NCBI RefSeq assembly: GCF_006715305.1
Contig: NZ_VFMY01000001.1
Coordinates: forward strand, 682,001 to 746,000
Reading direction: 5' to 3'
Length of the DNA stretch: 64,000 nucleotides
From: Arthrobacter sp. SLBN-100
GTDB taxonomy: Bacteria > Actinomycetota > Actinomycetes > Actinomycetales > Micrococcaceae
In this document: positions 16,670 through 36,852 of the stretch, piece by piece
How positions within the stretch are numbered: position 1 is the first letter of the stretch
Layout: each line of letters begins with the position of its first letter
Notes under the pieces: model-generated
Seen by the model: the letters and a program-made list of their open reading frames with translations, nothing else
Told to the model about the DNA's origin: nothing
Databases searched by the model: none
Translations under genes and position numbers: made by a program

Positions 16670-17863
16670 TCAGGAAACCGGAACTGTCGCCGCCGCATGC
16701 TCGGGCACCTGGCTCGGCTGCGCTGCGGCAGACGCCTGCCGCAGCTTGGTGAACAGCCCCGTCTCCACCGTGAGTCCGGGCCCGAACGCCATGGAGCAGA
16801 TCCGTTCGCCGCCGTCCTCGGGCGCCTGGTCCAGGATGTGCTTGAGCACAAACAGCACCGTCGAGCTGCTCATGTTGCCGTAATTGCGCAGCGTCTCCCG
16901 GGCAGGGACCAGCTGCTCGTCAGTGAGGCCGAGCCGGGACTGGACTTTGTCCAGGATGCTGCGGCCGCCCGGGTGGATGGCCCAGTGGCGGATGGACGTG
17001 TAGGGGAGCGCCGCCAGTTCCGGGTCCTTCGCCAGCAGGGGCTGAAGGGCGCCCACGATGTGGTCATCGATGATGTGCGGCACGTAATTCCCCAGGACCA
17101 TTTCAAACCCGTGGTCGCCGATGTTCCAGGCCATGGCGTCCTCGCCAACCGGTGTGAGGACGGTTTCGAAGTGGTCCAGCCGGAGCAGGGACTGTGCCTC
17201 CGAGCCGCTCCGGGCTGTGACGACGGCGGCCGCGGCACCATCGGCGAACAGGGCCGAACCCATAATGGTGTCAGGGTCGTTGGAGGTGCGCACGTGCAGG
17301 GAGCACAGCTCGGCGCAGACCACGAGGACAACCGCGTTCGGGTCCGCTTCGCAGAACAGTTTCGCTGCCCGGAGCGCGGGAAATGCCGCGTAGCAGCCCA
17401 TAAATCCGAGGTGGTAGCGCTGGACCGCCGGATCCAGGCCGAGCTCCCGGACGATCTTGTAGTCCGGGCCGGGGTTGAAGAACCCGGTGCACGAAACCGT
17501 GATGAGATGAGTTATGTCAAGTAAATCGAGCTCAGGGGCGGCAGCGACTGCAGCGCGCGCGGCTTCCACAAAGAGCTTGGTGGCCTCGCGGCCGAAAATC
17601 TCGTTGCGGACCTTTGTGCTGGGATTCAGCAGCAGGCCGGTCCCGGGATCGTAGAACTGCGGGCTGTCGGAGCGCAAATCGTTGGTGAGTTCTTCAACGG
17701 CGGTGAAACGGGTGTCGATGGCGGCCGAGTCAAAACAGGTGCTGACCAGCCGTGAACCAAGCCGGGTCAGACCTGGCTGGGCCGCAAACACGTCACGGGC
17801 TTGCGTCTGGATCAGCATCGTTTTCGGGACAGCAGTTTCAAGTGATCGCACATAGACCGTCAT
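16670..17863 (-). CDS. Type III polyketide synthase (chalcone synthase-like)
   Basis: 397 residues, the normal size for a homodimeric type III PKS. The catalytic triad is intact by alignment of motifs: Cys157 in HLGFMGCYAAFPAL, His297 in WAIHPGGRSILDK and Asn330 in LRNYGNMSSSTVLFVL. The enzyme condenses malonyl-CoA extenders on an acyl-CoA starter without an ACP; bacterial homologues make alkylresorcinols, alkylpyrones or tetrahydroxynaphthalene. The tailoring genes downstream favour a phenolic lipid or quinone product. The open frame extends 28 codons further upstream, but the ATG at 17863 begins the family-conserved sequence (TVYVRSLETAVPK). Confidence 0.92.
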   Translation of the reverse strand: MTVYVRSLETAVPKTMLIQTQARDVFAAQPGLTRLGSRLVSTCFDSAAIDTRFTAVEELTNDLRSDSPQFYDPGTGLLLNPSTKVRNEIFGREATKLFVEAARAAVAAAPELDLLDITHLITVSCTGFFNPGPDYKIVRELGLDPAVQRYHLGFMGCYAAFPALRAAKLFCEADPNAVVLVVCAELCSLHVRTSNDPDTIMGSALFADGAAAAVVTARSGSEAQSLLRLDHFETVLTPVGEDAMAWNIGDHGFEMVLGNYVPHIIDDHIVGALQPLLAKDPELAALPYTSIRHWAIHPGGRSILDKVQSRLGLTDEQLVPARETLRNYGNMSSSTVLFVLKHILDQAPEDGGERICSMAFGPGLTVETGLFTKLRQASAAAQPSQVPEHAAATVPVS

Positions 17864-18141
17864 TGACTCATTCTTAACGAGCAGCCGGTATATGACAATG
17901 CTGACCTGCGGATTTGTGTGCTGGAGCCTGCCTTTGCGCTGGTCCAAGTCACGGTGCCCGGATCACCGACAGGCCCCTTTCGCGATTCCTGGTAAAGCGC
18001 CGATAATCCACATTATGTCAAGCTGCACTCGGGGAATCGCATCTGATGCGAATTCGACGGACTTTGATACAGCGGGACGGTTGGCGCAATCAGCAGTTGA
18101 CAGTGGCCTCGCCCAAACACTGGGGCTGGCAGGATAGTGCT

Positions 18142-21252: not shown

Positions 21253-21435
21253 CTAAGGAACGCCGAGGGTTGTCGAGGGTGCCGGGACCAGGGGCAATTG
21301 GGTTTCCAGCTGCTGCGGGCCGGTTGCAGGTTCCGCTAGTTCCATCGGTATGGACAAGTAGCCTTGAGCCATTGCCGCCAGGGCGAGAACACGGACTAAA
21401 GTTCCGGGACCGGCGACCTTTTTTGATGCTTCCAT
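21253..21435 (-). CDS. Small hypothetical protein under a LacI-type operator
   Basis: 60 residues starting MEASKKVAGPGTLVRVLALA, with a hydrophobic stretch at about 13-29 and a Pro/Thr/Gln-rich tail. No family is recognised. The case for a real gene is its excellent ribosome-binding site: AAGGAGGAG ends 5 nt before the ATG at 21435. The near-palindromic LacI operator at 21470-21489, 35 bp upstream, supports it further. It is divergent from the first LacI gene, so both share one control region. It could be a small membrane peptide or the stump of a lost sugar gene; the sequence does not decide. Confidence 0.45.
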   Translation of the reverse strand: MEASKKVAGPGTLVRVLALAAMAQGYLSIPMELAEPATGPQQLETQLPLVPAPSTTLGVP

Positions 21436-21469
21436 AGAGCACTCCTCCTTGAGTGAGGTGAAGCAGGCA

Positions 21470-21489
21470 AAACGTTTACGCAAACGTTT
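21470..21489. promoter_or_regulatory. LacI-family operator A
   Basis: AAACGTTTACGCAAACGTTT is palindromic except at one symmetric pair. It lies 35 bp upstream of the divergent 60-aa gene and about 115 bp upstream of the first LacI gene. The central CG and the AAACGTTT arms fit the operator style of LacI-family sugar repressors. Confidence 0.75.
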
Positions 21490-21567
21490 GTAGGAGTAAA
21501 CGCGGTATGAGCCAGTGCTGTCAATATGCCGGCAGCCCTCAATCTGTAAACTGTCGGAGGTTGTGCG

Positions 21568-21587
21568 AAACGTTCGCGTAAACGATT
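21568..21587. promoter_or_regulatory. LacI-family operator B, imperfect
   Basis: AAACGTTCGCGTAAACGATT resembles operators A and C and lies 17 bp upstream of the first LacI start codon, where bound repressor would block its own transcription. Confidence 0.6.
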
Positions 21588-21604
21588 CTCCAAAGGCGGC
21601 GACG

Positions 21605-22609
21605 ATGACGACGATGGTAAAAGTGGCCAAACTTGCCGGCGTGTCCATCTCGACAGTCTCACACGTCCTGAACGGCACCCGGCACGTCAACGATGAGACG
21701 CGTCAAAGAGTACTGAAGGCCATCGAGGAAACCTCCTATCGCCAGGATGCCCTGGCCCGGGCTATGCGCCGGTCCCGGACGGACAGCATCGGACTGATCG
21801 TTTCCGACGGCGGCGAGCCGGCCTTCGCGGAGATGATCCGCGGTGTGGAAGAAACTGCCGCCAACCAGGGAATCACCCTGCTGCTGGCCAATTCCGCGGA
21901 GGACCCGGAACGTGAGGCTCGCGCCGTCCAGGCCCTCCTGGAGCGCAGGGTGGACGGCCTCATCCTGGCCCGCGCCGCGGGCTCCGGCCCGGAGGCCTTG
22001 ACGGACTTCGCCGACCAGGACACTCCGCTAGTGCTGATGGACCGGCTATCCGATGACCCGTTCGACCAAGTGGGGGTGGAAAACCGTGCGCCCATCAAGG
22101 AACTGGTGGAGCACTTGGCGTCCCAGGGGCATCAGCGGATTCTGTTGATTGCCGGGGATACAAGGGTTGCCACTCTCCGGGAACGGCACGACGCCTTCCA
22201 GGAGGCGATGGCGAGGGCAGGCATCCCGGTGACGGACCAGCTGACCGTTATCGCCGGGGAGCCCGAGGAAACCGACACCGGAATCTCGAAGGCGCTGTCG
22301 GCAGCGCAGCCCCCTACCGCCGCCATAGCCTGCAGTACTGTGCTGGCCGCGGCAGCACTTCGCCACATCCAGCAGCGGGCCTTGCGGATGCCAGAAGACA
22401 TCGCCTTCGCCACTTTCGACGGCTTCGCCTATGCAGACCTGTTTGAGCCCCAGCTCACCACCGTCCGCCAACCCGCCTTCCAAGTCGGCGCAACAGCAGC
22501 CAAGCTGCTGGCCAAGAGGATCGCCGACAAATCTGTTCAGCCGACCACTGTAAGACTGGCACCCACCATCGAATACCGCGCCTCCTCCTCCGCAGGACCA
22601 CGCTCCTAG
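21605..22609 (+). CDS. LacI-family transcriptional repressor 1
   Basis: 334 residues. The N-terminal helix-turn-helix reads VAKLAGVSISTVSHVLNGTR, with the hinge helix RQDALARAMRRSRTDSIGL. The periplasmic-binding-protein-like effector domain (about 60-330) includes ILLIAGDTRVATLRERHDAF and DIAFATFDGFAYADLFEPQL. The ATG at 21605 was chosen because it opens the DNA-binding domain and follows AAAGGCGG; the longer upstream frame runs through operator B. It closely resembles the second LacI protein 190 bp downstream, so the pair looks like a tandem duplication. The gene context suggests a fructo-oligosaccharide or difructose effector; that is inference. Confidence 0.92.
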   Translation: MTTMVKVAKLAGVSISTVSHVLNGTRHVNDETRQRVLKAIEETSYRQDALARAMRRSRTDSIGLIVSDGGEPAFAEMIRGVEETAANQGITLLLANSAEDPEREARAVQALLERRVDGLILARAAGSGPEALTDFADQDTPLVLMDRLSDDPFDQVGVENRAPIKELVEHLASQGHQRILLIAGDTRVATLRERHDAFQEAMARAGIPVTDQLTVIAGEPEETDTGISKALSAAQPPTAAIACSTVLAAAALRHIQQRALRMPEDIAFATFDGFAYADLFEPQLTTVRQPAFQVGATAAKLLAKRIADKSVQPTTVRLAPTIEYRASSSAGPRS

Positions 22610-22759
22610 CTCCCCTGGCCTGCGCCATCGCCATCTGTTGTTGGCAAGGCCATTGGCAACACCGGAATAGTCACTTCCGTTTTTCCTCCTCCGGTCTTTG
22701 AAGAACCGGAAGACAACTTTGTGACCTATTGCACATCGAAACGTTTGTCTCTACTATCG

Positions 22760-22779
22760 AAACGTTCGCGCAATCGTTT
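22760..22779. promoter_or_regulatory. LacI-family operator C in front of the second repressor and the transporter operon
   Basis: AAACGTTCGCGCAATCGTTT lies 17 bp before the GTG start of the second LacI gene, and a half-site AAACGTTTGT occurs at 22739-22748. No other operator is seen before the binding-protein gene, so this site probably controls the whole downstream operon. Confidence 0.65.
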
Positions 22780-22796
22780 CGCTAGAAGGAGTCGCA

Positions 22797-23840
22797 GTGG
22801 CAACCATCGTCGATGTCGCATCACTTGCAGGCGTTTCGACGTCCACTGTGTCGCACGTGCTCAACGAAACGCGGCACGTGGAACCGGAGACCAAAGAGCG
22901 GGTGATGAGTGCGGTGCAGGCCACCGGATATCGGCGCGATGTGCTGGCCCGCTCGATGCGCCGGGCCAGGACTGACTCCGTCGGCCTGGTGGTTTCGGAC
23001 GCCGGGGAGCCGGCCTTCGCGGACATGGTGCACGGGGTGGAAGAAGCCGCCGCACAGAACGGCCTGTCCCTGCTGCTGGCAAACTCGGCGGAAGATCCCG
23101 CCAGGGAACGCGCGGCAGTGGAGACACTTCTGGACCGCCGGGTTGATGGCCTCATCATTGCCCGGGCTGCCGGTTCGGCGGCCGGCTTGCTGGAGCGTAT
23201 CCGTGCGCACAAAAAGCCGCTGGTCCTCTTGGACCGGCTCGCGGGCCTGGACGTGGACCAAGTAGGCGTCAACAACACCTCCGCGATGGCGGCCCTGGTT
23301 GAACACCTCACCGCCCAGGGTCATGAACGGATCCTTCTGGTCTCAGGGGACCTGCGGGTCTCGTCCCTCCGCGAACGCTATGACGGTTTCCGCGCCGCCA
23401 TGGAGGAGCGAGGCTTTGAGGTCCCCGCCGCCTTGCTCTGCGAAGGAACCGTAACAGCGGCGGCCACCTTTGACAGTGTCCGGGCAGCGCTGCGCACCTC
23501 CGGTCCGAACCAGGAACGTCCGACGGCGGTCCTCGCCTGCAGCACGCTGCTGGCGGCTGGTGCCTTGCGGGCGGTGCAGCACGAAGGCCTGCGGGTGCCC
23601 GAAACGATGGCGTTCGCAACCTTCGACGGGTTTACGTACTCGGACCTGTTTCAACCCCAGATCACTACGGTCCGCCAACCGGCTTTCCAGCTCGGTGAAA
23701 GCGCCGTGAGTCTACTTCTGCGACGCCTGGAGAACCCTTCCGCTCCAACCAAAATCCTTCGACTCGACTCCGACATCGAATTCCGCCGCTCCACCAGTAG
23801 CTTCCCCTTAAATACCTCGACATCACATCCCGTCAGCTAG
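22797..23840 (+). CDS. LacI-family transcriptional repressor 2
   Basis: 347 residues, colinear with the first LacI protein (shared phrases STVSHVLN, VVSDAGEPAFADMVHGVEEA, LLLANSAEDP, RRVDGLIIARAAGS). The helix-turn-helix is VASLAGVSTSTVSHVLNETR; the effector domain has ILLVSGDLRVSSLRERYDGF and FATFDGFTYSDLFQPQITTV. The GTG start has GAAGGAG at 22785-22791. The binding-protein gene begins 63 bp after its stop with no intervening operator, so this repressor probably heads and autoregulates the operon. Sequence differences in the recognition helix suggest overlapping but perhaps not identical operator preference to repressor 1. Confidence 0.92.
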   Translation: MATIVDVASLAGVSTSTVSHVLNETRHVEPETKERVMSAVQATGYRRDVLARSMRRARTDSVGLVVSDAGEPAFADMVHGVEEAAAQNGLSLLLANSAEDPARERAAVETLLDRRVDGLIIARAAGSAAGLLERIRAHKKPLVLLDRLAGLDVDQVGVNNTSAMAALVEHLTAQGHERILLVSGDLRVSSLRERYDGFRAAMEERGFEVPAALLCEGTVTAAATFDSVRAALRTSGPNQERPTAVLACSTLLAAGALRAVQHEGLRVPETMAFATFDGFTYSDLFQPQITTVRQPAFQLGESAVSLLLRRLENPSAPTKILRLDSDIEFRRSTSSFPLNTSTSHPVS

Positions 23841-23903
23841 GCAACCAGCCATCGCATCCCATCAGCGCACCTTCTCCGGGTGCAGCAGGCAAAGGAGCAT
23901 CAC

Positions 23904-25208
23904 ATGAGAAAAACAGTCCGCACCACCCTCGCCGCGGCGGCAACTGCCGCCCTGCTGGCCCTGACCGCATGCGGGAGCTCCACGGACACGGCAACACCCG
24001 CAGCGGACGGCCCCTACTCCGCCCCAGCCAAGGACGTCACCGCCACCATCTCCGTCTCCAACTGGGGAGATCCTGGAGACAAAGCCGTGTACGACAGCGT
24101 GGCCGAGCGCTTCAAGGAGAAGTATCCGAACGTGACGGTGAACAACAACTTCACCCCCATCACCACTTGGACCGAATACGTCAATAAGCTGGTGACCCAG
24201 GCAGCCGCCGGGCAGGCGCCGGACGTCATTAACATCGCTACCGAGGGTGTGGAACTTGGCCTGACCAATGAGCTTTTCGCTCCCCTGGACGGCTTTCTGA
24301 AGAACGATCCTGAGGCCAAGTCCCTGCGGGAGGACATCGACCCGAAATTGCTGGAGGGGTTCAGTAAGGAGGGCTCGACCTACCTGATGCCCAACACGTT
24401 CAACACCATGGTGATCTACTACAACACCAAGATGTTCGATGCGGCCGGCATCGAGCGGCCCGGCGATGACTGGACCTGGGACGAGTTCCTGGAGATCTCC
24501 AAGAAGCTGACCACCGGTTCCGGGCCGGACAAGGTGTACGGGTTCGCCATGCCGTATTACTCCTTCGGCATCACCCCGTGGCTTTACTCCAATGGCACGT
24601 CCATGATGAGTGAGGACCTCAAAACGGCCCAGCTGACCGACGAAAAGGTCAAGGAAACCGTGGGCTGGGTCCGGGACCTCGTCACCGAGCATGGTGTGGC
24701 GCCGCAGCCGAAGGGCTCGGACCCCTACCAGCTGTTTCCCGCCGGTAAGGCGGCCATGACTGGTGCCGGACACTTCGTCACCGGCGGTTTCGAAAAGGCC
24801 GGCTTCGCCGACTACGACATCCTCCCCTGGCCGCAGCAGGCCACGAAGTCCACTGTTTTCGGCGCCGGCGCCTTCGCCGTCTCCAAGGCCTCGAAGAACA
24901 AGGAACTGTCCTGGGAGTTCATCAAGATGCTCACCGACCAGCAGACCCAGAAGCAGTGGGCCGACGCCGGCGCCGCCGTTCCGTCCACAAAGACCGCCGC
25001 TTCATCACCGGAATTCCTGGCCTCCCCTGAGCACGGTGAAGAGTTCTACAACTCCCTCTCCTACGCCAAGCCGGTGGCGGCGCCCCGCGCCTACAATGTG
25101 CTGGATCCGGCGTTCATGCGCGCAATGGACGAGATCATGTCCGGCCAGGACATCGGTTCTTCCCTTCAGAAGGCCCAGAAGGATGTTGAGGAGGCGTTGC
25201 AGCAGTGA
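23904..25208 (+). CDS. ABC transporter sugar-binding lipoprotein, family 1
   Basis: 434 residues. A Sec lipoprotein signal (RKTVRTTLAAAATAALLALT followed by the lipobox cysteine in LTACGSS) is followed by a family 1 solute-binding fold with WGDPGDKAVYDSVAERFKEK, the hinge IYYNTKMFDAAGIERPGDDW and a C-terminal KPVAAPRAYNVLDPAFMRAM. Such proteins capture oligosaccharides outside the membrane and deliver them to a two-permease importer, encoded next. The ATG at 23904 has AAAGGAG at 23891-23897. The downstream GH172 and GH32 genes point to a fructose-containing oligosaccharide as ligand; this is inference. Confidence 0.9.
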   Translation: MRKTVRTTLAAAATAALLALTACGSSTDTATPAADGPYSAPAKDVTATISVSNWGDPGDKAVYDSVAERFKEKYPNVTVNNNFTPITTWTEYVNKLVTQAAAGQAPDVINIATEGVELGLTNELFAPLDGFLKNDPEAKSLREDIDPKLLEGFSKEGSTYLMPNTFNTMVIYYNTKMFDAAGIERPGDDWTWDEFLEISKKLTTGSGPDKVYGFAMPYYSFGITPWLYSNGTSMMSEDLKTAQLTDEKVKETVGWVRDLVTEHGVAPQPKGSDPYQLFPAGKAAMTGAGHFVTGGFEKAGFADYDILPWPQQATKSTVFGAGAFAVSKASKNKELSWEFIKMLTDQQTQKQWADAGAAVPSTKTAASSPEFLASPEHGEEFYNSLSYAKPVAAPRAYNVLDPAFMRAMDEIMSGQDIGSSLQKAQKDVEEALQQ

Positions 25209-26161
25209 CCTTGACTGCCTCCAAAAGCACGCTGCCGCCCGTGGCCCTTCCGGGTCACGGGGGGCGGCCCGGCCGCCAAAGCGCCACCCGCCGTCGGGAA
25301 GCCCTCACCGGCTACCTTTTCACGGCACCCACGATCATCGGCTTCCTGGTCTTCGTCCTCGGCCCGCTCATCGCGGCCTTGTACCTGAGCCTCACCAAGT
25401 ACAACATCCTCACCGCACCCAAATTCATCGGCTTCGACAACTACGCCCGGATGTTCCGGGACGAGCGCCTGGCCACCACCTACGGCAACACCGTCCTGTA
25501 CGTCGTGGCTGCCGTGGTCCTGATCAACGGGTTTGCGCTCCTGTTCGCAGTGCTCATCAACCAGCGGCTCCCCCGGGCACTCACCTACGTGTTCCGCTCC
25601 GCCTACTTCTTCCCGTACCTGGTGGCGCTGGTGTACGTGTCCATCATCTGGCAGGCACTCTTCCAAAAAGACACGGGGATCCTGAATTACTACCTCACCG
25701 CACTGGGCGGGGAGCGGATCGACTGGCTCAACAGCTCGGAGTTCTCCAGGCTCTCGGTGATCATCGTGGATACCTGGCGGAACGTCGGCTTCGCCATGCT
25801 GATCTTCGTGGCGGCCCTGCAGGAAGTCCCCAAGGACATGGTGGAGGCCGCCCGGATGGACGGCGCCAACGAGTGGCAGATTTTCCGCCGCATCATCCTG
25901 CCGATGATCAGCCAGGCGACGTTCTTCAACATCACCATCACCATCATCGGCGCGTTCCAGATCTATGAATCGATCATTGTGCTCACCCGCGGCGGCCCCG
26001 GCGATGCCAGCCGCAGCGTGGTGATGTACATCGCCGAAGTGGCCTTCAACAAGTTCGACATGGGCTACGCCTCAGCCATCGCGGTGACCCTGTTCCTGAT
26101 CATCATGCTGGTAACCATGGTGCAGTTCCGCCTAAGGAAGTCCTGGGTGAACAATGAGTAA
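25205..26161 (+). CDS. ABC sugar transporter permease (MalF/UgpA type)
   Basis: 318 residues with six predicted membrane helices, beginning with LTGYLFTAPTIIGFLVFVLG. The EAA loop that docks the ATPase reads EVPKDMVEAARMDGANEWQI, followed by FRRIILPMI. The GTG start overlaps the binding-protein stop (GTGA), indicating translational coupling. It forms the membrane channel together with the next gene's product. No ATPase gene is present in the operon, as is common for actinobacterial CUT1 importers that share one MsiK/UgpC-like ATPase. Confidence 0.92.
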   Translation: MTLTASKSTLPPVALPGHGGRPGRQSATRRREALTGYLFTAPTIIGFLVFVLGPLIAALYLSLTKYNILTAPKFIGFDNYARMFRDERLATTYGNTVLYVVAAVVLINGFALLFAVLINQRLPRALTYVFRSAYFFPYLVALVYVSIIWQALFQKDTGILNYYLTALGGERIDWLNSSEFSRLSVIIVDTWRNVGFAMLIFVAALQEVPKDMVEAARMDGANEWQIFRRIILPMISQATFFNITITIIGAFQIYESIIVLTRGGPGDASRSVVMYIAEVAFNKFDMGYASAIAVTLFLIIMLVTMVQFRLRKSWVNNE

Positions 26162-27059
26162 CTACAACGCGGTCTTCCTGTCCAGGCCAGAAGCCGGAAC
26201 ACCTGACGCACGAACAAATTTGCGACGGCGGCCCCTCCCCGGCGTCGGAAAGAGCATTTCCGTCTCGCTCCTGATCCTCGGAGCCATCGGAATGATCGCC
26301 CCCTTCCTGTGGATGTTCACGACCTCACTCCGGGACGCCAGCCAGGCCTATGATCTGCCGCCGCAGTGGCTGCCCACCGAGTGGGACTGGTCCAACTACG
26401 CCGCGGCGGTCAGCGGGCCGGTACCCATCCTGCGGAACATGCTTAACAGCGCCGTCATCGCCATCGCGGTCAGCATTGGCATGATCATCACCGCACCCAT
26501 GGCCGGTTACGCCTTCGCCAAGCTGGAATTCCCGGGTCGTAACTCGATCTTCGTCGGACTGCTGTCCTCGCTGATGGTGCCGGCACAGGTGACCATCATT
26601 CCGTTGTTCCTCCTGATGCGGACCTTTGGCCTGCTGGACAACCCGCTCAGCCTGATCCTGCCCGGCATCACCGGAGCCCTGGGAGTATTCCTCCTGCGCC
26701 AGTTCTTCCTGGGCCTGCCGCAGGAAATCATCGACGCCGCCCGCATGGACGGAGCAACTGCCTGGCAAACCTACCGGCTGATCGCACTGCCACTGGCCAA
26801 AAACGCCGTCAGCACCCTCGGAGTCATCACGTTCCTCGGCAGCTGGAACGCCTACTTCGCCCCGTCCATCTTCCTCAACAGCACCGACACCGCCACCCTC
26901 CCGCTGGGCCTGGTCCTGATGCTTGGCCCCTACGGCGCCGGCAACGTGGCCCAGGTGATGGCAGCCACCACCATCGCCATCGCCCCGGCACTGATCGTCT
27001 TCCTTGTGGCCCAGCGCTGGATCATCGCCAGCCTCACCCAGTCAGCCGTCAAGGGCTAA
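26154..27059 (+). CDS. ABC sugar transporter permease (MalG/UgpE type)
   Basis: 301 residues, a second CUT1 permease. The N-terminus is cytoplasmic and polar; the first helix begins at about residue 36 (SVSLLILGAIGMIAPFLWMF). The EAA loop is LPQEIIDAARMDGATAWQTY, followed by RLIALPLAKNAV. The ATG overlaps the upstream permease stop by 8 bp, so the two are coupled. It pairs with the preceding permease and binding protein to import an oligosaccharide for the GH172 and GH32 enzymes encoded next. Confidence 0.92.
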   Translation: MSNYNAVFLSRPEAGTPDARTNLRRRPLPGVGKSISVSLLILGAIGMIAPFLWMFTTSLRDASQAYDLPPQWLPTEWDWSNYAAAVSGPVPILRNMLNSAVIAIAVSIGMIITAPMAGYAFAKLEFPGRNSIFVGLLSSLMVPAQVTIIPLFLLMRTFGLLDNPLSLILPGITGALGVFLLRQFFLGLPQEIIDAARMDGATAWQTYRLIALPLAKNAVSTLGVITFLGSWNAYFAPSIFLNSTDTATLPLGLVLMLGPYGAGNVAQVMAATTIAIAPALIVFLVAQRWIIASLTQSAVKG

Positions 27060-27089
27060 CCCCCCAACTCCTTGAAAGGTACATCCACC

Positions 27090-28454
27090 ATGGCAACATC
27101 CACGCGCTCCGGCCTGCTCTCAAGCCTGACCAAGCTCTCCACCGCCCGCACCGCCCGCGCCTCCAGCTGGGACCAGACCGGCCGCAACCGCGACAACTGG
27201 ATCATCATGCCCGGCGAAGAACGGGTCCTGGCAGATATCGAGGGCCCCGGCGCCATCACCCACATCTGGATGACCCAGTCCTGCCGGATCCAGCCGGGCC
27301 CGGGCCAGATCTCCCCCGAACTGGTAGGCGTGCCCATGCTCGAAATCCACAACGCCCTCGGCGTCAGCTGGGAGGTCGTTGACCCGGACTACTACCGAAA
27401 AATCGTCCTCAAAATGTACTGGGACGACCAGGAAACCCCAAGCGTCATCGCACCCCTGGGTGACTTCTTCGGTCTGATGAACTCGCTCTCCGGTTCCTAC
27501 GACTCCCTGCCGCTCTCGGTCTCCGCCAAGGAACCGGAACTAAACACCTTCGGCGGCAGCGCGGCCTTCAACAGCTACTTCGAAATGCCTTTCAACTCCC
27601 GGGCCCGGATCATCGTCGAAAACCAGAACGACATCCCCTACCTGCAGTACTTCTACATCGACTACGAGCTCTACACAGAGGCCCTGCCCGAAGACACCGC
27701 CTACTTCCACGCCCACTGGCGCCGGCAGAAGCCGAACGCCGGCTGGGGCCCTGACCTGCAGACCAACAGCATCGAGGTGGCCATCCCCAACCTCACCGGC
27801 GAGGACAACTACGTGGTGCTGGAGACCGAAGGCCAGGGCCACTACGTAGGCTGCAACCTCGCCGTCCGCCACTTCCAGGGCTCCTGGTGGGGCGAGGGCG
27901 ACGACATGATCTTCATCGACGACGACACCTGGCCGCCCAGCCTCCACGGCACCGGGATGGAAGACTACTTCGGCCATGCCTGGGGCATGCAGCACAACGC
28001 CTTCCTTATGAACGGCACCATGGTCCACGAGGAAAACGTGCCCGGCTTCCACCACAGCTACCGCTTCCACATGACCGATCCCATCCGGTTCCAGACACGC
28101 ATCAAGGTCACCTTCGAGCATGGCCACGCCAACCACCTCTCCGATGACTGGTCCTCCACCGCCTACTGGTACCAGACCCTCCCCTCCCCCAGCCTGGACA
28201 TCGATGCCGTGGAGGACCGCCTGCCGCTGCGGCCCCGCGACCAGGTGGAAGAGATCCCGCTGCCCAATCTCACACCGGCCCAGCAGGCTGCCCGCGACGC
28301 CTCCGCCGAGCGGATGAAGAAATTCACGGAGGCACGCGATGCCGTTCGGAACGAACGCAAGGCAGAGATCGACGAATGGGAGAAGGCTAACGCGACGCAG
28401 GCACGTGAAGTCCGCCAGCGGTTTCTGGCCGCGAACAGCGTCCCGGTCCCCTAA
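27090..28454 (+). CDS. GH172 (DUF2961) enzyme, probable difructose-dianhydride or fructoside hydrolase
   Basis: 454 residues without a signal peptide, so intracellular. Conserved DUF2961 features include SSWDQTGRNRDNWIIMPGEE near the N-terminus, GPGAITHIWMT, LPYxF-type core strands, and the signature GTGMEDYFGHAWGMQ at about residues 287-301, with DPIRFQTRIKVTFEHGHAN after it. GH172 is known from Bifidobacterium alpha-fructofuranosidase/difructose dianhydride I synthase-hydrolase and from actinobacterial D-arabinan-degrading enzymes. The GH32 partner and sugar importer here favour a fructan or difructose-anhydride substrate. The ATG at 27090 follows GAAAGG. The C-terminal 50 residues are charged and helical. 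Confidence 0.85.
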   Translation: MATSTRSGLLSSLTKLSTARTARASSWDQTGRNRDNWIIMPGEERVLADIEGPGAITHIWMTQSCRIQPGPGQISPELVGVPMLEIHNALGVSWEVVDPDYYRKIVLKMYWDDQETPSVIAPLGDFFGLMNSLSGSYDSLPLSVSAKEPELNTFGGSAAFNSYFEMPFNSRARIIVENQNDIPYLQYFYIDYELYTEALPEDTAYFHAHWRRQKPNAGWGPDLQTNSIEVAIPNLTGEDNYVVLETEGQGHYVGCNLAVRHFQGSWWGEGDDMIFIDDDTWPPSLHGTGMEDYFGHAWGMQHNAFLMNGTMVHEENVPGFHHSYRFHMTDPIRFQTRIKVTFEHGHANHLSDDWSSTAYWYQTLPSPSLDIDAVEDRLPLRPRDQVEEIPLPNLTPAQQAARDASAERMKKFTEARDAVRNERKAEIDEWEKANATQAREVRQRFLAANSVPVP

Positions 28455-28503
28455 CCCGGCCAGTAACTCCGCCGCCTCGATAAGTCATCACAAAAGGACC
28501 AGC

Positions 28504-29853
28504 ATGAACGCGCACGAACTACGGCCCGCCTTCCACTTCACCGCATGCGAAGGATGGATTAACGATCCCCTCGGTGTGACCTGGAAGGACGGCCAGTACC
28601 ACCTCTTCTACCAGTACGTCCCCGGCCGAACGACGTGGGCCTCCAACTGCCACTGGGGCCATGCCACCTCCCCGGACATGATCGCTTGGAGCGAGCAGGG
28701 CATCGCGGTTGCCCCCGGCGAAGGGGACGACGGCGTCTGGTCCGGTTCCATCGCCACCGGCGCCGATGGTGCCGCGACCATGTTCTACACCTCTGTCACC
28801 GAGCCGGACATCGGTATCGGGACCGTCCGGGCAGCCACCCCCGATGACGAGAACTGGAACAGCTGGACCAAGGGCGAAAAGCTGATGACCGCGCCCGACC
28901 CGAGCGTCGCGGCCTACCGGGACCCGTTCGTCTTTCGGGACGGCGAACAGTGGCGCATGTTTGTTGGCGCCGGCCTGACGGGCGGCACCGCCGCCGCGGT
29001 CTCCTACAGCTCCCCCGACCTTTCCGAGTGGACCCTGGACGGCATCGCCGCCCAGCGCAGCGGAACCGAAACAGACCCCGTCTGGACCGGCACCATGTGG
29101 GAGTGCCCCCAGCTGTTCGAAATCGACGGCTCCCATATCTTGGTCACCTCCATCTGGGAAGACGACGTGCTGCACTACGTCGCCTACGGCGTCGGCACTT
29201 ACGCCGACGGCAAGTTCGCCGCCCGATCCTGGGGCCAGCTCAGCTACGGCAAGAGCTACTACGCCCCCTCCTTCTTCACGGACAAAGACGGCGCCCCCTC
29301 GCTGATCTTCTGGGTCCGCGGCGTGATCAGCCCCAAAGGACAATGGGCCAGCGCCCTGAGCATCCCCCACACACTGACCCTCGACGGCGACACCCTGGTG
29401 GCCACCCCGCACACCGACCTTGCCGCCTACTCGCAGCCCGTCCAGCTGGAGCAGGTGGACGGCAACCTCTTCGAGGCAGAGCTCAGCAACGGCGCGGACC
29501 TGCGCTGCACCGTCGGCGCCGGGACGGTCATCAGCCTGGCCACCCTGGACGAGGCTTTGGTAACCCTCCGCCATGATGGGGACAGCCTCGCAGTGACCGC
29601 AGCCGGTAACCCAGACTTCGCTGATGCGCTTTTCCCTGTCGATGCGGGAAGCGAAGTGCGGGTCATTATCGACGCCGGCGTGGTGGAGATTTCCGGCCGG
29701 CAAGGCATCATGGCGGTTCCACTGCCCATCGTGGACTCACCTGTGACACTGAGCGTTGCCAACGCTTCCGCCCAGCAGCTGTTCACGATCCAACGGCCGC
29801 CAGCAAGCAGCGCGGGCAGCGGCCGGAAGGCTGCCTTGGCAGGACAGCCATGA
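28504..29853 (+). CDS. GH32 beta-fructosidase, intracellular
   Basis: 449 residues, no signal peptide. The three GH32 catalytic motifs are present: nucleophile Asp21 in EGWINDPLG, transition-state Asp140 in AYRDPFVF, and acid/base Glu200 in MWECPQLF. The beta-propeller is followed by a C-terminal beta-sandwich (about 330-435). GH32 enzymes release fructose from sucrose, inulin, levan or inulobiose with retention. ATG 28504 follows AAAGGACC. The longer in-frame extension upstream lies inside the GH172 gene and was rejected. It probably cleaves the inulobiose-like product of GH172; that coupling is inference. The stop overlaps the start of the fructokinase pseudogene. Confidence 0.93.
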   Translation: MNAHELRPAFHFTACEGWINDPLGVTWKDGQYHLFYQYVPGRTTWASNCHWGHATSPDMIAWSEQGIAVAPGEGDDGVWSGSIATGADGAATMFYTSVTEPDIGIGTVRAATPDDENWNSWTKGEKLMTAPDPSVAAYRDPFVFRDGEQWRMFVGAGLTGGTAAAVSYSSPDLSEWTLDGIAAQRSGTETDPVWTGTMWECPQLFEIDGSHILVTSIWEDDVLHYVAYGVGTYADGKFAARSWGQLSYGKSYYAPSFFTDKDGAPSLIFWVRGVISPKGQWASALSIPHTLTLDGDTLVATPHTDLAAYSQPVQLEQVDGNLFEAELSNGADLRCTVGAGTVISLATLDEALVTLRHDGDSLAVTAAGNPDFADALFPVDAGSEVRVIIDAGVVEISGRQGIMAVPLPIVDSPVTLSVANASAQQLFTIQRPPASSAGSGRKAALAGQP

Positions 29854-30521
29854 CCATCACCTCTGCTTCCCAGCGTCCGAACCCGGACGTTGTCGTCATC
29901 GGGAATCCCTGGTCGACGTGATCAGCACGGCGGACGGACCCATCGATTTTGCGGATCGGGCCTGAACGTTGCCTTCGGCCTCGGCCGCCTTGGGCCAACC
30001 CCGGGCTGCTGACCATCTTCGGCGCAGACCAGCGGGGCGAAGCAATCCGGCAGCACCTGGCCTCAGCCGGGGTCCAGCTGCTGCCGGGTGCGGTGCGCCT
30101 GGACCGGACCTCCACGGCCACGGCGTCCCTGGACAGCTCCGGCTCAGCCCAATACACCTTTGACATCGAGTGGACGCTGCCACGGGCCACACCCGCGTTC
30201 GTACCCAAAGTGCTGCACACGGGATCCCTCGCCACCTTCGTCTAACCTGGCGCCACCCACGTCCGGGCCCTGCTGCAGTTCTTTCCGGCAGGTGCCGCCT
30301 GATCACCTACGACCCAACATCCGCTCCGACGTCATCGGCAACCACCACCAGGCACTGCAAACCTTCGAGGCCACGGCGCGCTTCGCGCGACATTGGTGAA
30401 GCTCAGCGACGAAGATGGCGGCTGGCCGTACCCGGGGCTCTCAACACCTGAAGTGGCCTCCCGGGTGTTCTTGCATGTTGGAGTACTGGTGGCTGCCTCA
30501 TGTATGGGCGATGGCGGCGCG
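29850..30521 (+). pseudogene. PfkB-family fructokinase, decayed by several frameshifts
   Basis: The ATG overlaps the GH32 stop (ATGA), so this was the next operon gene. Across three frames the protein can be followed: PDVVVIG and SLVDVISTADGPIDFA, SGLNVAFGLGRLG, PGLLTIFGADQRGEAIRQHL, ATASLDSSGSAQYTFDIEWT, VPKVLHTGSLATF, an in-frame TAA, then LITYDPNIRSDVIG-like sequence, and VKLSDEDGGWPYPGLSTPEV to about 30521. Apparent single-base losses near 29902, 29950 and 29992 break the frame, and the C-terminal ATP-binding GAGD region is gone. Fructokinases phosphorylate free fructose, so the locus has lost its dedicated kinase. Confidence 0.85.
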
Positions 30522-31934: not shown

Positions 31935-33677
31935 TCAACGCAGCCAAACGGTGGTGTTGGCCGCCAGATTGCCGTCCTCTATGGGTGCGCTGCTGACGAG
32001 CACGGTGCCTGTCGGAAGGTCGATGGGGGTGTACCCGAAGTTGGTTATGGACTGCCAGCCGCCGGGGCGGCGGAAGTGCAAGACGTCCGGGTTGCCGGTC
32101 TCGATCCATTCGAGGTCTTCGTCGGACTGGAGCTCACGGCGCAGCCGCAGGGCGGTGCGGTAGAGCTCCAGGGTTGAGTCTTCCATGCCGTTCTGTGCCT
32201 CTACGGCGTACTTGCTGAACCACTCCGGCTGGGGCAGGTGTGCGCCGCCGTCGCAGAAGCCGAAGGAGGTACCTTCCACCGTCCACGGCAGGGGCACGCG
32301 GCAGCCGTCGCGGCCGATTTCCACGCCCTTGTTGCGGAAGAATGCAGGGTCTTGCCGCTCCGAGTCTGGAATTTCCGCGACTTCCTGCAGGCCAAGTTCC
32401 TCGCCCTGGTACAGGTAGGCCGAACCGGGGAGGGCGAACATCAGCAGGGATGCGGCGCGGGCGCGGCGCAGTCCAAGCTCCACGTCGAGTTCCTCGGCCG
32501 GTCCGCCCGCGAGCAGCCAGGCTTTGCCGTCCTGGCCCTTGGGCTCGTTCGCCGTGACGTCCTGGGCGGCGTTGGTTCCCTGGGCTGCTGTGGCGTTGCC
32601 CTTGGGTAGACCGTAGCGGGTGGCGTGGCGGACGACGTCGTGGTTGGAGAACACCCAGGTGGAGGATGCCCCGGTTTCCTTTGCTGCGATGAGGTTGTCC
32701 GTGATGATTTTCTTGAACTGCGGCGCCTCGAAGTCGGTCTGAAGGAGGTCGAAGTTGAAGGCCTGGCCCAGCCCTTCGGGGCTGGCGTAGCGGGCGCGGC
32801 GCGTTTCGTGGACCCATGCTTCTGCGACGGCTGTGCGTGGCGGGTTGTACTCGTTGAAGAGTTTGCGCCATTCGGCGTAGACCTCGTGGACCTCGTCGCG
32901 GTCCCAGAAGGGGTGTGAACCATCGTTGAACCCGTCAGGGCCGGCTTTGGCTTCCAGCTCCGCCTTCAACGGCAACGGCTCAGAGAGGTCCTTTGCCATG
33001 CCGTGGGCGACGTCTATGCGGAAGCCGTCCACGCCGCGGTCGGACCAGAAACGCAGGGTTTTCAGGAAGTCTTCGCGGACCTCGGGGTTGTCCCAGTTGA
33101 AGTCCGGCTGCTCCTTGGCGAAGATGTGCATGTACCACTGACCGGTGCCGTCCGGTTCGGTGATGCGTTCCCAGACCGGTCCGCCGAACACCGAGTCCCA
33201 GTCCGACGGCGGCAGCTCGCCGTTTTTGCCCTTGCCGTCACGGAAGATGTAGCGGTCGCGGGCAGCGGAGCCCTTCGGGGAGGCGAGTGCTTCCTTGAAC
33301 CATTCGTGCCGGTCAGATGAGTGGTTGGGCACAATGTCGGCGATCAGCTTGATGCCTGCGGCGTGCAGGGCAGCCACCATCTCGTCGAAGTCTTCGAGCG
33401 TGCCCAGTTTCGGGTCCACGTCGCGGTAGTCATCCACGTCGTAGCCGCCGTCTGCCAATGCGGAGGGGTAGAAGGGACTCAGCCAGACAGCGTCAATTCC
33501 CAATGACTTCAGGTAGGGGACCTTTGCGGTGATGCCTTTGATGTCGCCGATGCCGTCGCCGTTCGAATCGGCGAAGCTGCGGGGGTAGATCTGATAGACC
33601 GCGGCCTGGCGCCACCAGTTCGGATCGGCCATGCGCTCGGCCTCGGTTCTGTCTGCCTCAGTGACGATGGTGCTCAC
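31935..33677 (-). CDS. GH13 alpha-glucosidase (oligo-1,6/alpha-1,4-glucosidase type)
   Basis: 580 residues, intracellular. GH13 regions are visible: AAVYQIYPRSFADSNGDGIG at the N-terminus, region I DIVPNHSS, region II DGFRIDVAHG with the nucleophile Asp, region III containing AVAEAWV with the acid Glu, and region IV in VFSNHDVVRH. The enzyme releases glucose from imported malto- or isomalto-oligosaccharides. The start at 33677 has AAGGAG four bases upstream. It is the last gene of the minus-strand order: binding protein, two permeases, ROK kinase, alpha-glucosidase. A 180-bp gap from the kinase gene may hold a separate promoter. Confidence 0.93.
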   Translation of the reverse strand: MSTIVTEADRTEAERMADPNWWRQAAVYQIYPRSFADSNGDGIGDIKGITAKVPYLKSLGIDAVWLSPFYPSALADGGYDVDDYRDVDPKLGTLEDFDEMVAALHAAGIKLIADIVPNHSSDRHEWFKEALASPKGSAARDRYIFRDGKGKNGELPPSDWDSVFGGPVWERITEPDGTGQWYMHIFAKEQPDFNWDNPEVREDFLKTLRFWSDRGVDGFRIDVAHGMAKDLSEPLPLKAELEAKAGPDGFNDGSHPFWDRDEVHEVYAEWRKLFNEYNPPRTAVAEAWVHETRRARYASPEGLGQAFNFDLLQTDFEAPQFKKIITDNLIAAKETGASSTWVFSNHDVVRHATRYGLPKGNATAAQGTNAAQDVTANEPKGQDGKAWLLAGGPAEELDVELGLRRARAASLLMFALPGSAYLYQGEELGLQEVAEIPDSERQDPAFFRNKGVEIGRDGCRVPLPWTVEGTSFGFCDGGAHLPQPEWFSKYAVEAQNGMEDSTLELYRTALRLRRELQSDEDLEWIETGNPDVLHFRRPGGWQSITNFGYTPIDLPTGTVLVSSAPIEDGNLAANTTVWLR

Positions 33678-33857
33678 GCTACTCCTTCATTTGGAATCTG
33701 AATTGAACTTACGGATTGCGTGTGATGGCGGGCATGCCGGGACAGCTTTACCCAGTGTTCTGGCGGTCTGCTGCATCCGGTTTCCGCCGGCGCTTGCTGC
33801 TCCGCGCCAAAATTTGTGAAAGCAAGCAGCAGGGGTCACAACGCGACGGGCGTGGTT

Positions 33858-34847
33858 TTATGCGTAATTCGGGACCTGCGGGATGATGCCGCTGAGGTGG
33901 ACCTTGTCCGCTGAGTTCGTCCCTGTTCTTGAAGCTTCTGGTTCTGTCTTTTGATCAGCCGGTTCCAGGGAAAGATCGGCGGCCCCGATCGCCCCGGCGA
34001 GGGGGCCCAGAACGGCGGTCCTGAGTTGGGGGCGGGAACGTGGCGGGGTCACTTCAGCACCTGCCAGTGCTTCTTGTGCGATCGCCAGGAAGCGTCGGTC
34101 ACTTCCAAGTCCTCCGCCGAGGATCACCAGGGAAGGGTCCAAGGCGGAGGAAAGAAGGAGTATGCCCCGTGTGAGGTCGCGGGCCACACCTTCAACGACT
34201 TGGTGGGCAGCAGGATGAGTTCCCGCGGCCGACAGGACGTCCTGGCCCGCGGTGGGGTTGTCCCAACCGGCGGCGACCGATGCCCGCTGGAGAGCGCTGC
34301 CGCTGGCGTATCGTTCCCAGCAGCCACGTGATCCGCAGGGACAGCTGTCACCGCCGGGAACCAGTGCTAAGTGGCCGATCTCACCTGCTGCGCCGGTCGC
34401 CCCGCGCAGGAGACGCCCATTGATAACGAACCCACCCCCCAGGCCGGTACCCACGGTGATCATCGCGAACGAGTCCGTGCGGGGATGTCCGCCAAACCGG
34501 TATTCCGCCCACGCGGCCGCGTTCGCGTCGTTGTCCACCCGGACCGCAGCCTCTGCCGGCAGGAGTGCCCGCACGTGCTCGACAATATCCAGATCAGTCC
34601 ATCCGATGTTCGGGGCGGATCTGATGATGCCTGTGATTGGGTTGACGTCCCCAGGAACGGCGATACCGATACCTGGCAGGTCGTACTTCCCCGCGAAACC
34701 GTCGACGATTGCGGCGATCTGCTCAAGGATCAAGTCCCCACCGCGGGCGGTTGGAGTTGTCTCGACATCCATGACAGTGCCGTCATGGTCAAGGACTGCA
34801 CTGGCAATCTTCGTGCCGCCTATATCGATCCCTAGAGAACGTGTCAT
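33858..34847 (-). CDS. ROK-family sugar kinase (glucokinase-like)
   Basis: 329 residues. It has the phosphate-binding start SLGIDIGGTKIASAVLDHDG, the catalytic and sugar-binding GTGLGGGFVINGRLLRG, AAGEIGH, and the zinc motif CPCGSRGCWERYAS typical of ROK kinases; the C-terminal LVILGGGLGSDRRF completes the fold. There is no DNA-binding domain, so this is a kinase, probably phosphorylating glucose freed by the alpha-glucosidase encoded next. The ATG at 34847 was preferred over an upstream in-frame start because AGAAGG precedes it and the ROK fold begins there. It lies 170 bp after the permease gene. Confidence 0.9.
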   Translation of the reverse strand: MTRSLGIDIGGTKIASAVLDHDGTVMDVETTPTARGGDLILEQIAAIVDGFAGKYDLPGIGIAVPGDVNPITGIIRSAPNIGWTDLDIVEHVRALLPAEAAVRVDNDANAAAWAEYRFGGHPRTDSFAMITVGTGLGGGFVINGRLLRGATGAAGEIGHLALVPGGDSCPCGSRGCWERYASGSALQRASVAAGWDNPTAGQDVLSAAGTHPAAHQVVEGVARDLTRGILLLSSALDPSLVILGGGLGSDRRFLAIAQEALAGAEVTPPRSRPQLRTAVLGPLAGAIGAADLSLEPADQKTEPEASRTGTNSADKVHLSGIIPQVPNYA

Positions 34848-35017
34848 CGTTGGACCTTCTGAATAATGGCCAAGCCGGGGGCCCCGGAGCATGCCCAAAT
34901 TTCGGTTGGCCTGGGGAAGAATCGGTCAATATCGTGGGCAGTCACGTTGTCTCGCTTTGGTGATGGGTGCTGGATATTTGGTTTCGACTTCAAGGGCAGC
35001 GTAGGCCGATGAAGTTA

Positions 35018-35914
35018 TTAGGACTTGGATCCGGAGAGGGCGATCCCGTCGACGATCCGGCGTTGGGCGACTCCGAACAGGACCAGCAATGGCCCTGCAG
35101 CCAGGGTCGTGGCAGCCATGAGGGCGGTCCAGTCAGCGCCGTACTGGCCTTTGAACTGGTTCACCAGCAGCGGGAGCGTGAAGTTCGCGTCGCTGTTGAG
35201 GAAGATCAGCGGCCCGAAGAAGTTGTTCCACTGGCCCAGGAAGGTGAAGATTCCGAGCGCGGTGAGGGGGGTGCGCAGCAGCGGCAGGATCATGGTGGTG
35301 AAGATCCGGAAACGGCTGGCACCGTCCAGTTCGGCGGCTTCCTCCAGCTCTTTCGGGATGCCCTTGACGTACTGTCGCATGAGGAACACGCCGAAAGCGT
35401 TGAAGAGTGCGGCGGGCACGATGAGTGCGGCGTGGGTGTCTATCCAGCCGAACCAGCCCATGATGATGTAGAGCGGGATGATGGTCAGCTGGGCCGGAAC
35501 CATCATCGTGGCGAGGAACACCATGAACAGGGGCTTGCTTCCGCGGAATTCGATTCTGGCGAAGGCGTAGGCGGCCATGGATGAGGTGAGCAGGGAGATC
35601 GCGGTGACGGTTACTGCAATGTAGGTGCTGTTCCAGAATCCGCGGACGAAGTCGGCACCTGTGAAGGCTTTTTCATAACCCTCTGTGGTCCATTCGAGCG
35701 GGAACAAGGCCGGGGGGTGCGCGAAGATCTCGGTCACCGGTTTGAACGAGGACAGCAGCATCCACAGGAATGGCAGGGCCATCAGGACTGCGCAGGCAGC
35801 CAGGGCAGCGTGGAGAATGGTTCGGCCCGCAAGACGCTGGGGGTTCAACCCCCGGCGCTCCGATGCCTCGGGCATGCTCCGGTGGTTATTTCGGGTAGTG
35901 GTGGGAGTGCTCAT
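35018..35914 (-). CDS. ABC sugar transporter permease (MalG type)
   Basis: 298 residues, six predicted membrane helices, the first at about residue 35 (ILHAALAACAVLMALPFLWM). The EAA loop is IPKELEEAAELDGASRFRIF. The ATG at 35914 overlaps the stop of the upstream permease (ATGA); a start six codons further upstream would extend the overlap. With its partner it forms the channel of the alpha-glucoside importer. As in the fructan locus, no ATPase gene accompanies the operon. Confidence 0.92.
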   Translation of the reverse strand: MSTPTTTRNNHRSMPEASERRGLNPQRLAGRTILHAALAACAVLMALPFLWMLLSSFKPVTEIFAHPPALFPLEWTTEGYEKAFTGADFVRGFWNSTYIAVTVTAISLLTSSMAAYAFARIEFRGSKPLFMVFLATMMVPAQLTIIPLYIIMGWFGWIDTHAALIVPAALFNAFGVFLMRQYVKGIPKELEEAAELDGASRFRIFTTMILPLLRTPLTALGIFTFLGQWNNFFGPLIFLNSDANFTLPLLVNQFKGQYGADWTALMAATTLAAGPLLVLFGVAQRRIVDGIALSGSKS

Positions 35915-36852
35915 TCTGCGTAGTGGACCCATCTCTTCTGAGCCGCCAGCTGCAGGGCGGTCACACCGAGCAGGGACAGCAGGAGCAGGAATGCCAGGGC
36001 CGAGGCCTGGCCGAAATTGAATTCGCGGAAGGCGATCTGGACGACTTCGTACACGATGGTGCGGGCAGCTTCAGGAGCATTGCTGTCCATGAAGACATAG
36101 ATGTAGTCGAAGATCTGAAAGGAGCCGATGATCGAGGTGATCGAGAGAAACAGGATGGTGGGAGACAGCAGCGGAATAGTGACGTGCACAAGCTTCTGCC
36201 ACCCGCTGCAGCCGTCCAGCTCGGCCGCTTCCAGGTAGGAAGAGCCGATGCTCTGCAGTCCGGCCATGAACATCACCAGCTGGTAGCCCAGGCCCTGCCA
36301 GATTGCCACAATAGCGAAGGCCGGAATGATGAAATTGGGGTCCTGCAGCCAGTCCGGGGCCTGGATGCCGATGCTGCGCAACGCGCTGCTGACCGGGCTG
36401 ATTTCAGGGTTGAACAGCCACAACCAGATCGCAGCAACCGCCACGGAAGAGGTCACCACCGGTGCTACGAAGCAAAGCCGGTAGACCGATGTCATCTTGC
36501 CCGCCTTCTGCATCAGCAGGGCAAAGATGAAACTTGAGATCATCAAGCCGGGCACCTGCAGCACCGTGAACCACAGGGTATTCAAGGCCGAGCGCTGGAT
36601 CCGTGGGTTGGACAGTACGTCAGTGAAGTTCCCGAACCCGGCAAACGTCGCCGCGCCGAAGCCATCCCAGTCACTGAACGCCAATACCAGGGCAAAGACC
36701 AGCGGTCCGACCATGAAGGCTGCCAGCCCCACGAGTTGCGGCGACAGGAAGACCAGCGCGGCGATTGTGTCCTTGCGCCTGCGCCGGGACGGGCCGCGTC
36801 GAGGTGGTTCGGTCGACCGTGCCGGTGCAGGGGTGGCGGTCAGCGTGCTCAC
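35911..36852 (-). CDS. ABC sugar transporter permease (MalF type)
   Basis: 313 residues. After a basic, proline-rich cytoplasmic start (PPRRGPSRRRRKDTI) there are six membrane helices, from IAALVFLSPQLVGLAAFMVG onward. The EAA loop is SSYLEAAELDGCSGWQKLVH. The GTG start overlaps the binding-protein stop (GTGA), and its own stop overlaps the next permease start, so the three transporter genes are translationally coupled. Confidence 0.92.
   Translation of the reverse strand: MSTLTATPAPARSTEPPRRGPSRRRRKDTIAALVFLSPQLVGLAAFMVGPLVFALVLAFSDWDGFGAATFAGFGNFTDVLSNPRIQRSALNTLWFTVLQVPGLMISSFIFALLMQKAGKMTSVYRLCFVAPVVTSSVAVAAIWLWLFNPEISPVSSALRSIGIQAPDWLQDPNFIIPAFAIVAIWQGLGYQLVMFMAGLQSIGSSYLEAAELDGCSGWQKLVHVTIPLLSPTILFLSITSIIGSFQIFDYIYVFMDSNAPEAARTIVYEVVQIAFREFNFGQASALAFLLLLSLLGVTALQLAAQKRWVHYAE

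Follow-up and report, generated by a model that had tools for sequence, protein, structure and literature searches.

An operon with two LacI-type regulators, GH172 and GH32 in Arthrobacter sp. SLBN-100, predicted to break down difructose dianhydride I

A GH172-GH32 operon in Arthrobacter

The window analyzed here is a stretch of 64,000 nucleotides from Arthrobacter sp. SLBN-100 (NCBI RefSeq assembly GCF_006715305.1, contig NZ_VFMY01000001.1, positions 682,001 to 746,000; host genome 4.94 Mb, in two contigs). It contains seven open-frame genes arranged head to tail on the forward strand (21605-29853), followed by a broken gene of the PfkB kinase family, as identified from open reading frame translations and Pfam. 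The seven genes encode, in this order, two regulators of the LacI family (LacI1 and LacI2), a sugar-binding protein, two permeases, a GH172 (DUF2961) protein and a GH32 protein. We consider it very likely that this is a LacI-controlled catabolic operon for difructose dianhydride I (DFA I), the substrate, direction, regulation and cross-feeding of which we infer from the genes and their relatives. All of the genes had been listed in a preliminary description of this sequence, and their presence, order and strand, with strong Pfam matches, agree with it; the interval given there (21253..30521) holds for the genes but not at its start, as LacI1 most likely begins at 21605 and the preceding 21253-21604 is free of operon genes (it contains an operator-like site).

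The GH172 protein belongs to the αFFase1 group

Among solved structures, αFFase1 of Bifidobacterium dentium matches the GH172 protein best (7v1v, 548 bits), with 241 of 441 aligned residues identical (55%), well ahead of 4kq7 (200 bits), 8ah3 (181 bits) and 8ic8 (108 bits), the three remaining solved members of GH172. In αFFase1, Glu270 is the acid/base and Glu291 the nucleophile, whereas Glu85 and Lys147 lie in the +1 subsite, and mutants of Glu85 or Lys147 keep their aryl-arabinofuranosidase activity but lose more than 95% of the activity on inulobiose (PMC8605356). The window protein has both catalytic glutamates (Glu269, corresponding to Glu270 of αFFase1, and Glu291) and retains the Glu85/Lys147 pair. 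Eleven of the 12 residues around the sugar and the calcium ion named by Kashima et al. (2021) are identical, and the sole change, Asn272 to Asp, is likewise found in most of the αFFase1 clade. With this identity over 441 residues and its pocket residues kept, the protein falls within the αFFase1 group as selected by Kashima et al. (more than 47% identity, pocket residues kept).

A scan of named genomes yielded 282 GH172 relatives. In the best 80 of these matches, Glu85 is conserved throughout and Lys147 in 76 (Arg in L110, L136 and L141; Thr in L112), and of five further clade paralogues that were aligned but stand outside the 80, four have both residues and one is truncated. Neither residue was found in 24 aligned GH172 sequences outside the αFFase1 clade, a set that includes two proteins of only 24% identity (L079_13640 and L077_14426) and in which the solved sequences are HMMER-aligned parts (in 4kq7, 8ah3 and 8ic8, X bridges the unknown letters), so that the lack of Glu85 in these three reflects a much shorter segment there and not letters read. 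In a tree of 108 sequences (L079_13640, L077_14426 and L113_13891 were removed before tree building), the window protein and 7v1v fall into one clade of 85 with a support of 0.98, and 4kq7, 8ah3 and 8ic8 are all outside of it; L110_9896, one of the 80, was placed just outside the clade.

The preliminary description had named clustering of the GH172 protein with arabinan-degrading enzymes as the outcome that would speak against its reading, and neither the bit scores nor the tree revealed such clustering; in particular, the protein does not group with the solved D-arabinofuranosidases 8ah3 and 8ic8. It might still be an exo-alpha-D-arabinofuranosidase acting on mycobacterial-type D-arabinan fragments, since the other characterized GH172 enzymes are D-arabinofuranosidases (PMC10115798) and αFFase1 has this side activity. 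The exo-alpha-D-arabinofuranosidases of Dysgonomonas and Nocardia share DUF2961 and the catalytic glutamates with it (PMC10115798), but the solved ones apparently lack the Glu85/Lys147 pair (judged from the aligned letters) and stand apart in the tree. Since the bit scores, the placement in the tree, the residues of the +1 subsite and the adjacent GH32 gene all point elsewhere, we regard this specificity as very improbable and set it aside. On the sequence evidence, the window GH172 is with high probability a DFA I-type alpha-fructofuranosidase serving catabolism.

Gene neighborhoods and distribution

Gene neighborhoods were counted in the best 80 loci of the scan, a set rich in Arthrobacter, over up to 10 kb on either side (some of the 80 loci and some controls are shorter). 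The controls were 33 other GH172 loci, drawn from sets of 11 and 23 after removal of L157, which belongs to the αFFase1 clade (62% identity) and has a GH32; three matches were left out (G455:C16, G722 and G473), and three control loci are short (L170, 3.1 kb; L171, 5.4 kb; L172, 8.2 kb). With profiles built from the αFFase1-clade loci themselves, GH32 was found nearby in 71 of the 80 clade loci versus 2 of the 33 controls, and GH91 in 23 versus 1. A GH32 neighbor as in the window is thus seldom found when the GH172 gene falls outside the αFFase1 clade. The combination of Glu85/Lys147 with a GH32 neighbor may serve as a sequence signature by which, within GH172, likely DFA I enzymes can be told apart from D-arabinanases.

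The closest GH172 relatives in named genomes are from Arthrobacter species. Fourteen named Arthrobacter loci (L063-L076; GH172 93-96% identical) share the seven-gene order (in L071 two frames appear in another order, owing to sorting by stop-to-stop frame), and the seven genes are 73-97% identical to those of these relatives. A fifteenth Arthrobacter-named locus outside this group, L098 (80%), has one LacI, on the opposite strand, and another arrangement, resembling that of most non-Arthrobacter actinobacterial loci. Among 345 genomes of the family, 14 have a GH172 match, and only four of them reach at least 80% identity (the host, G260, G217 and G216). In G260 the operon lies on a small contig (L050, G260:C2, 61,990 bases) beside genes that by eye resemble conjugation ATPases (1-3353), and it may be plasmid-borne.

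More distant loci differ in composition. No GH32 was seen in the examined DNA around the αFFase1-like GH172 of L102, L106, L108 and L110 (Chloroflexota bins) and L112 (an Actinobacteria bin), and a second GH172 paralogue stands in place of GH32 in L106, L108 and L110. Six further loci (L100, L101, L103, L104, L107 and L111, from Ensifer, Sinorhizobium, Martelella and a Hyphomicrobiales bin) have a GH172 of 59-62%, a binding protein of 41-44% and permeases of 46-54% identity to those of the window, with a GH91 of the type that hydrolyzes difructose anhydride III (DFA III) near the GH172 in L103, L104, L107 and L111. In L049 (G225:C37, 6900-16500), a GH172 outside the αFFase1 clade (43% identity) lies beside GH91, GH32 and a PfkB-type gene, possibly representing another specificity for difructose anhydrides.

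Proposed pathway and known systems

In the pathway that we propose, the lipoprotein and the two permeases would bring in DFA I, the cytoplasmic GH172 enzyme would open its alpha-fructofuranosyl bond by the retaining mechanism of αFFase1 to give inulobiose, and the neighboring GH32 enzyme would cut inulobiose into two fructoses. The αFFase1 equilibrium favors DFA I over inulobiose by 9:1 (PMC8605356), and a GH32 partner would therefore be needed to pull the reaction. The two LacI repressors would regulate themselves and the operon until the sugar, as the presumed inducer, relieves repression, and DFA I would be supplied by other microbes or by heating. The same succession (import of an anhydride, opening by GH172, splitting by GH32) had been suggested in the preliminary description, and similarity to αFFase1, the conserved residues, the tree and the GH32 neighbors speak for it. 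A signal peptide is seen on neither enzyme when the translations are read by eye, as had also been noted there. Of the substrate suggested earlier, a difructose anhydride or an inulin fragment, the anhydride stands and can be narrowed to DFA I or the related diheterolevulosan II.

The nearest solved relative of the GH32 protein is the beta-fructosidase 1uyp (141 bits), and its translation contains WINDP, RDP and EC, which we take to be the motifs of GH32; together with the Pfam match to the N-terminal domain (E 2e-61), they place it among the GH32 beta-fructofuranosidases. Across the host genome there are 11 GH32 matches, of which two fall in a single frame of 912 residues; the genome thus contains a large fructan-degrading set. 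On the second contig (326 kb), three GH32 frames are clustered within about 8 kb (G000:C2:100327-108496), together with a fourth that matches weakly (21-26 bits). The binding protein carries the lipobox LTAC (by eye), and its best solved relatives are Lmo0181 (110 bits) and an arabino-oligosaccharide-binding protein (88 bits). The ATPase of a CUT1-type importer is absent among the seven operon genes (the rest of the genome was not searched for one), and the ATP-hydrolyzing subunit is presumably encoded elsewhere and shared.

An operon of this kind has already been published, namely BBDE_2039-2043 of B. dentium with αFFase1 (Kashima et al. 2021, PMC8605356), and the window is a well-supported new example of it. 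B. dentium is said to grow on DFA I, an unpublished result quoted in PMC8605356. Both operons combine LacI, GH32, GH172 and an ABC (ATP-binding cassette) importer, and, as far as the description in that paper goes, the two enzymes likewise lack signal sequences and the genome likewise lacks GH91. Unlike the B. dentium operon, for which one LacI is named, the window has two LacI genes, a kinase remnant and a GH172 of 55% identity, in a soil-type actinobacterial host. The DFA I route of Streptomyces davawensis (BN159_0187, 0193 and 0194; PMC8605356) likewise has GH172 and GH32 in one genome, but that genome is described as having a DFA I-forming GH91, and none was detected in the genome of the window. 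In the DFA III route of Arthrobacter and Blautia, the anhydride is also opened to inulobiose inside the cell and then cut by GH32, but the opening enzyme described there is a GH91 DFA III hydrolase (PMC11538131), whereas in the window operon it would be GH172. With this operon, Arthrobacter would join Bifidobacterium, for which the αFFase1 pathway has been described, and S. davawensis, for which it has been proposed. In a literature search outside of which most subscription journals lay, GH172 together with Arthrobacter led only to PMC8605356 and PMC11538131, and difructose together with LacI and operon only to PMC8605356; no paper was found on the paired LacI, the operator-like sites or the scarcity of DFA I makers in Arthrobacter.

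GH91 and the source of DFA I

Arthrobacter has long been known as a maker of difructose anhydrides. Members of GH91 convert inulin to difructose anhydrides and open DFA III (PMC8605356, PMC11538131). Neither PF18835 nor a GH91 profile detected a GH91 in the host genome. Since this profile did match 7 of the 12 genomes covered by one joint search, including G086 and G217, neither of which is in the profile alignment, the empty result for the host is meaningful. The profile also found no GH91 in the relative G260 (operon on the 62-kb contig). A beta-helix protein of the host (G000:C1:769874-770647) was considered as a GH91 candidate and rejected, as it has no solved match at E 0.01 and the genome has no PF18835 match. 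A three-stage DFA I pathway (extracellular GH91, import, GH172 plus GH32) would place the GH91 in the same genome, which is not the situation found here, and production of the anhydride from inulin by a GH91 of the host itself is unsupported.

The 23 GH91 proteins near clade GH172 genes comprise 15 closest to the type of 8hsn, 7 closest to DFA III hydrolase and 1 closest to the DFA III-forming enzyme. In the genome G216, a GH91 of the 8hsn type lies about 8 kb from the GH172. The PDB name of 8hsn is just 'Fructotransferase', and the paper behind 8hsn/8hui was not found in the literature search except for a passing mention in PMC12648331. The reference protein used for this type has 394 residues, shows no signal peptide when read by eye, and is 42-51% identical to the GH91 proteins compared. 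The type thereby fits the DFA I-forming enzyme described for A. globiformis S14-3, which has 392 residues and no signal peptide and is 49.8% identical to the DFA III-forming enzyme (PMC5448860).

Each of the 14 named Arthrobacter genomes that carry the operon has at least one GH91. Four of them have a GH91 that is closest to the DFA III-forming reference, the margin being narrow in G748 and G751 (53-54% to this reference versus 50-51% to the DFA I-like one). The family sample contains 35 genomes of the genus, the host being one of the 35, and PF18835 detected GH91 in 16. The operon is thus often found in genomes that also handle DFA III and rarely together with a clear DFA I-making enzyme.

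Several points weigh against DFA I as the substrate. A GH91 of the DFA III hydrolase type is present in 13 of the 14 operon-bearing Arthrobacter genomes and a clearly DFA I-like one in a single genome, which, with no GH91 found in the host, leaves the source of DFA I unexplained. That the 8hsn type makes DFA I is itself inferred from features shared with the enzyme of A. globiformis S14-3, namely its length, the missing signal peptide and an identity of about 50% to the DFA III enzyme. Nine of the 80 clade loci have no GH32 in the examined DNA, and αFFase1 also cleaves alpha-D-arabinofuranosides and makes diheterolevulosan II (PMC8605356). The natural substrate might be another alpha-fructofuranoside, such as diheterolevulosan II (into which αFFase1 turns fructopyranosyl-fructose; PMC8605356) or other caramel disaccharides, or inulobiose, which is also the product of the DFA III hydrolase present in most of these genomes (PMC11538131), with DFA I being incidental. 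However, a GH91 that is probably DFA I-forming lies near clade GH172 genes in 15 of the 80 loci, and inulobiose as the substrate would require GH32 alone; we therefore think it improbable that DFA I is only incidental.

If DFA I is the substrate, the lack of a detectable GH91 implies that the host probably takes up DFA I made elsewhere. The simplest reading is that it comes from neighbors, e.g., those relatives from Streptomyces, Microbacterium and Nocardioides that have GH172 together with a GH91 of the 8hsn type; heated plant matter would be another source.

The LacI pair and the control region

LacI1 and LacI2 of the window and the 14 Arthrobacter loci form separate clades (15 of 15 proteins each, support 1.0), and the pair is therefore older than the split of these strains. 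An operator-like site, GCGAAACGTTCG, precedes LacI1; 12 of 13 other loci share it with the window, the exception being L074 with one base changed (L069 was left out), and CGAAACGTT lies 37-39 bases ahead of the LacI1 start in 13 of the 14 upstream regions examined (window included). Two more operator-like half sites were seen by eye in AAAACGTTTACGCAAACGTTTG (21469-21490), also upstream of LacI1, in the window only and in none of the 13 relatives compared.

Between the two LacI genes, a control region of about 50 bases is nearly invariant in all 15 loci, whereas the remainder of the gap is variable. It contains TCGAAACGTTTG, TCGAAACGTTCG and a third, inverted copy, AATCGTTTCG. The operator pattern matches three times in the window, a number reached by none of 100 shuffles. 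The exact 13-mer ATCGAAACGTTYG occurs twice in the genome, both times at this locus, and with one mismatch it has 13 further genome matches, versus 2 for the pattern read backwards. The hexamers TTGCAC and TACTAT, picked by eye, are 17 nt apart in the control region; the first operator-like site lies between them, and the second starts at the last base of TACTAT. They are weak (3 and 4 of 6 consensus letters by hand count), and a consensus promoter scan called no promoter at the control region, so a promoter there rests on conservation and the weak hexamers. Sites in these positions would allow a LacI repressor to block a promoter, weak as the hexamers are. Both LacI proteins, to judge from the sequences, probably bind predicted operators of the kind [GT]CGAAACGTTYG before each LacI gene.

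It is conceivable, though rather unlikely, that the host is a dedicated scavenger that makes no DFA I from inulin but retains the importer and the GH172 enzyme, and whose two divergent LacI proteins read different ligands. If so, the ligands could be, e.g., DFA I and inulobiose or fructose, the unfavorable opening reaction would be switched on only with both supply and pull, and the host would live as a cheater at the expense of other soil actinobacteria, which produce the sugar for their own exclusive use. Both the predicted operators and the cross-feeding relation can be tested.

The kinase remnant

The decayed PfkB kinase gene at the end of the operon, as recognized in the preliminary description, shows frame changes and stops relative to intact relatives. 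It aligns, with gaps, to the intact 309-residue kinases of G260 and G217, which occupy the same place, up to residue 224; the ungapped pieces up to residue 207 involve six frame changes and one piece with a stop, and one weak piece lies beyond. About the last third of the kinase is missing. An intact PfkB gene follows GH32 in L067, L068 and G260 (L068 and G217 are probably the same genome) and was not seen there in the other 12 of the 14 Arthrobacter loci. The window kinase gene is in the course of being lost, and fructose must therefore be phosphorylated by another kinase; a protein of the ROK family that might take the place of the lost one is encoded downstream of the remnant (33858-34853).

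The several frame changes and stops in the kinase gene might suggest that the whole operon is decaying and no longer working. This is exceedingly improbable, as the other seven genes are open and have kept the identity to their counterparts in the 14 relatives given above, and 12 of these relatives retain the rest of the operon without a PfkB after GH32.

Features of the window

The features of the locus are compiled in Table 1.

Table 1. Features of the predicted DFA I operon and its control sites (positions within the window)
Feature	Position	Strand	Evidence
Operator-like site GCGAAACGTTCG upstream of LacI1	21565..21576	+	Pattern match, one mismatch
LacI-family regulator 1 (LacI1)	21605..22609	+	Pfam LacI, Peripla_BP_3
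Conserved control region between LacI genes	22729..22781	+	Conservation, pattern matches
Operator-like sites in control region	22736-22747, 22757-22768, 22772-22781		Third picked by eye
LacI-family regulator 2 (LacI2), paralogue of LacI1	22797..23840	+	Pfam
ABC-transporter sugar-binding lipoprotein	23904..25208	+	Pfam SBP_bac_8, SBP_bac_1
ABC-transporter permease 1	25205..26161	+	Pfam BPD_transp_1
ABC-transporter permease 2	26154..27059	+	Pfam BPD_transp_1
GH172 (DUF2961), αFFase1 type (predicted DFA I synthase/hydrolase)	27090..28454	+	Pfam E 8e-84; 7v1v E 1.6e-163
GH32 beta-fructofuranosidase	28501..29853	+	Pfam Glyco_hydro_32N E 2e-61
Remnant of PfkB-family sugar kinase	29850..30521	+	Alignment with intact 309-residue kinases

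Elsewhere in the window, an alpha-glucan gene set lies downstream of the operon (31935-43499; GH13, ROK kinase, two permeases, binding protein, pullulanase and a ROK-family regulator), and a type III polyketide synthase of the chalcone synthase family is encoded upstream on the reverse strand (16670-17947).

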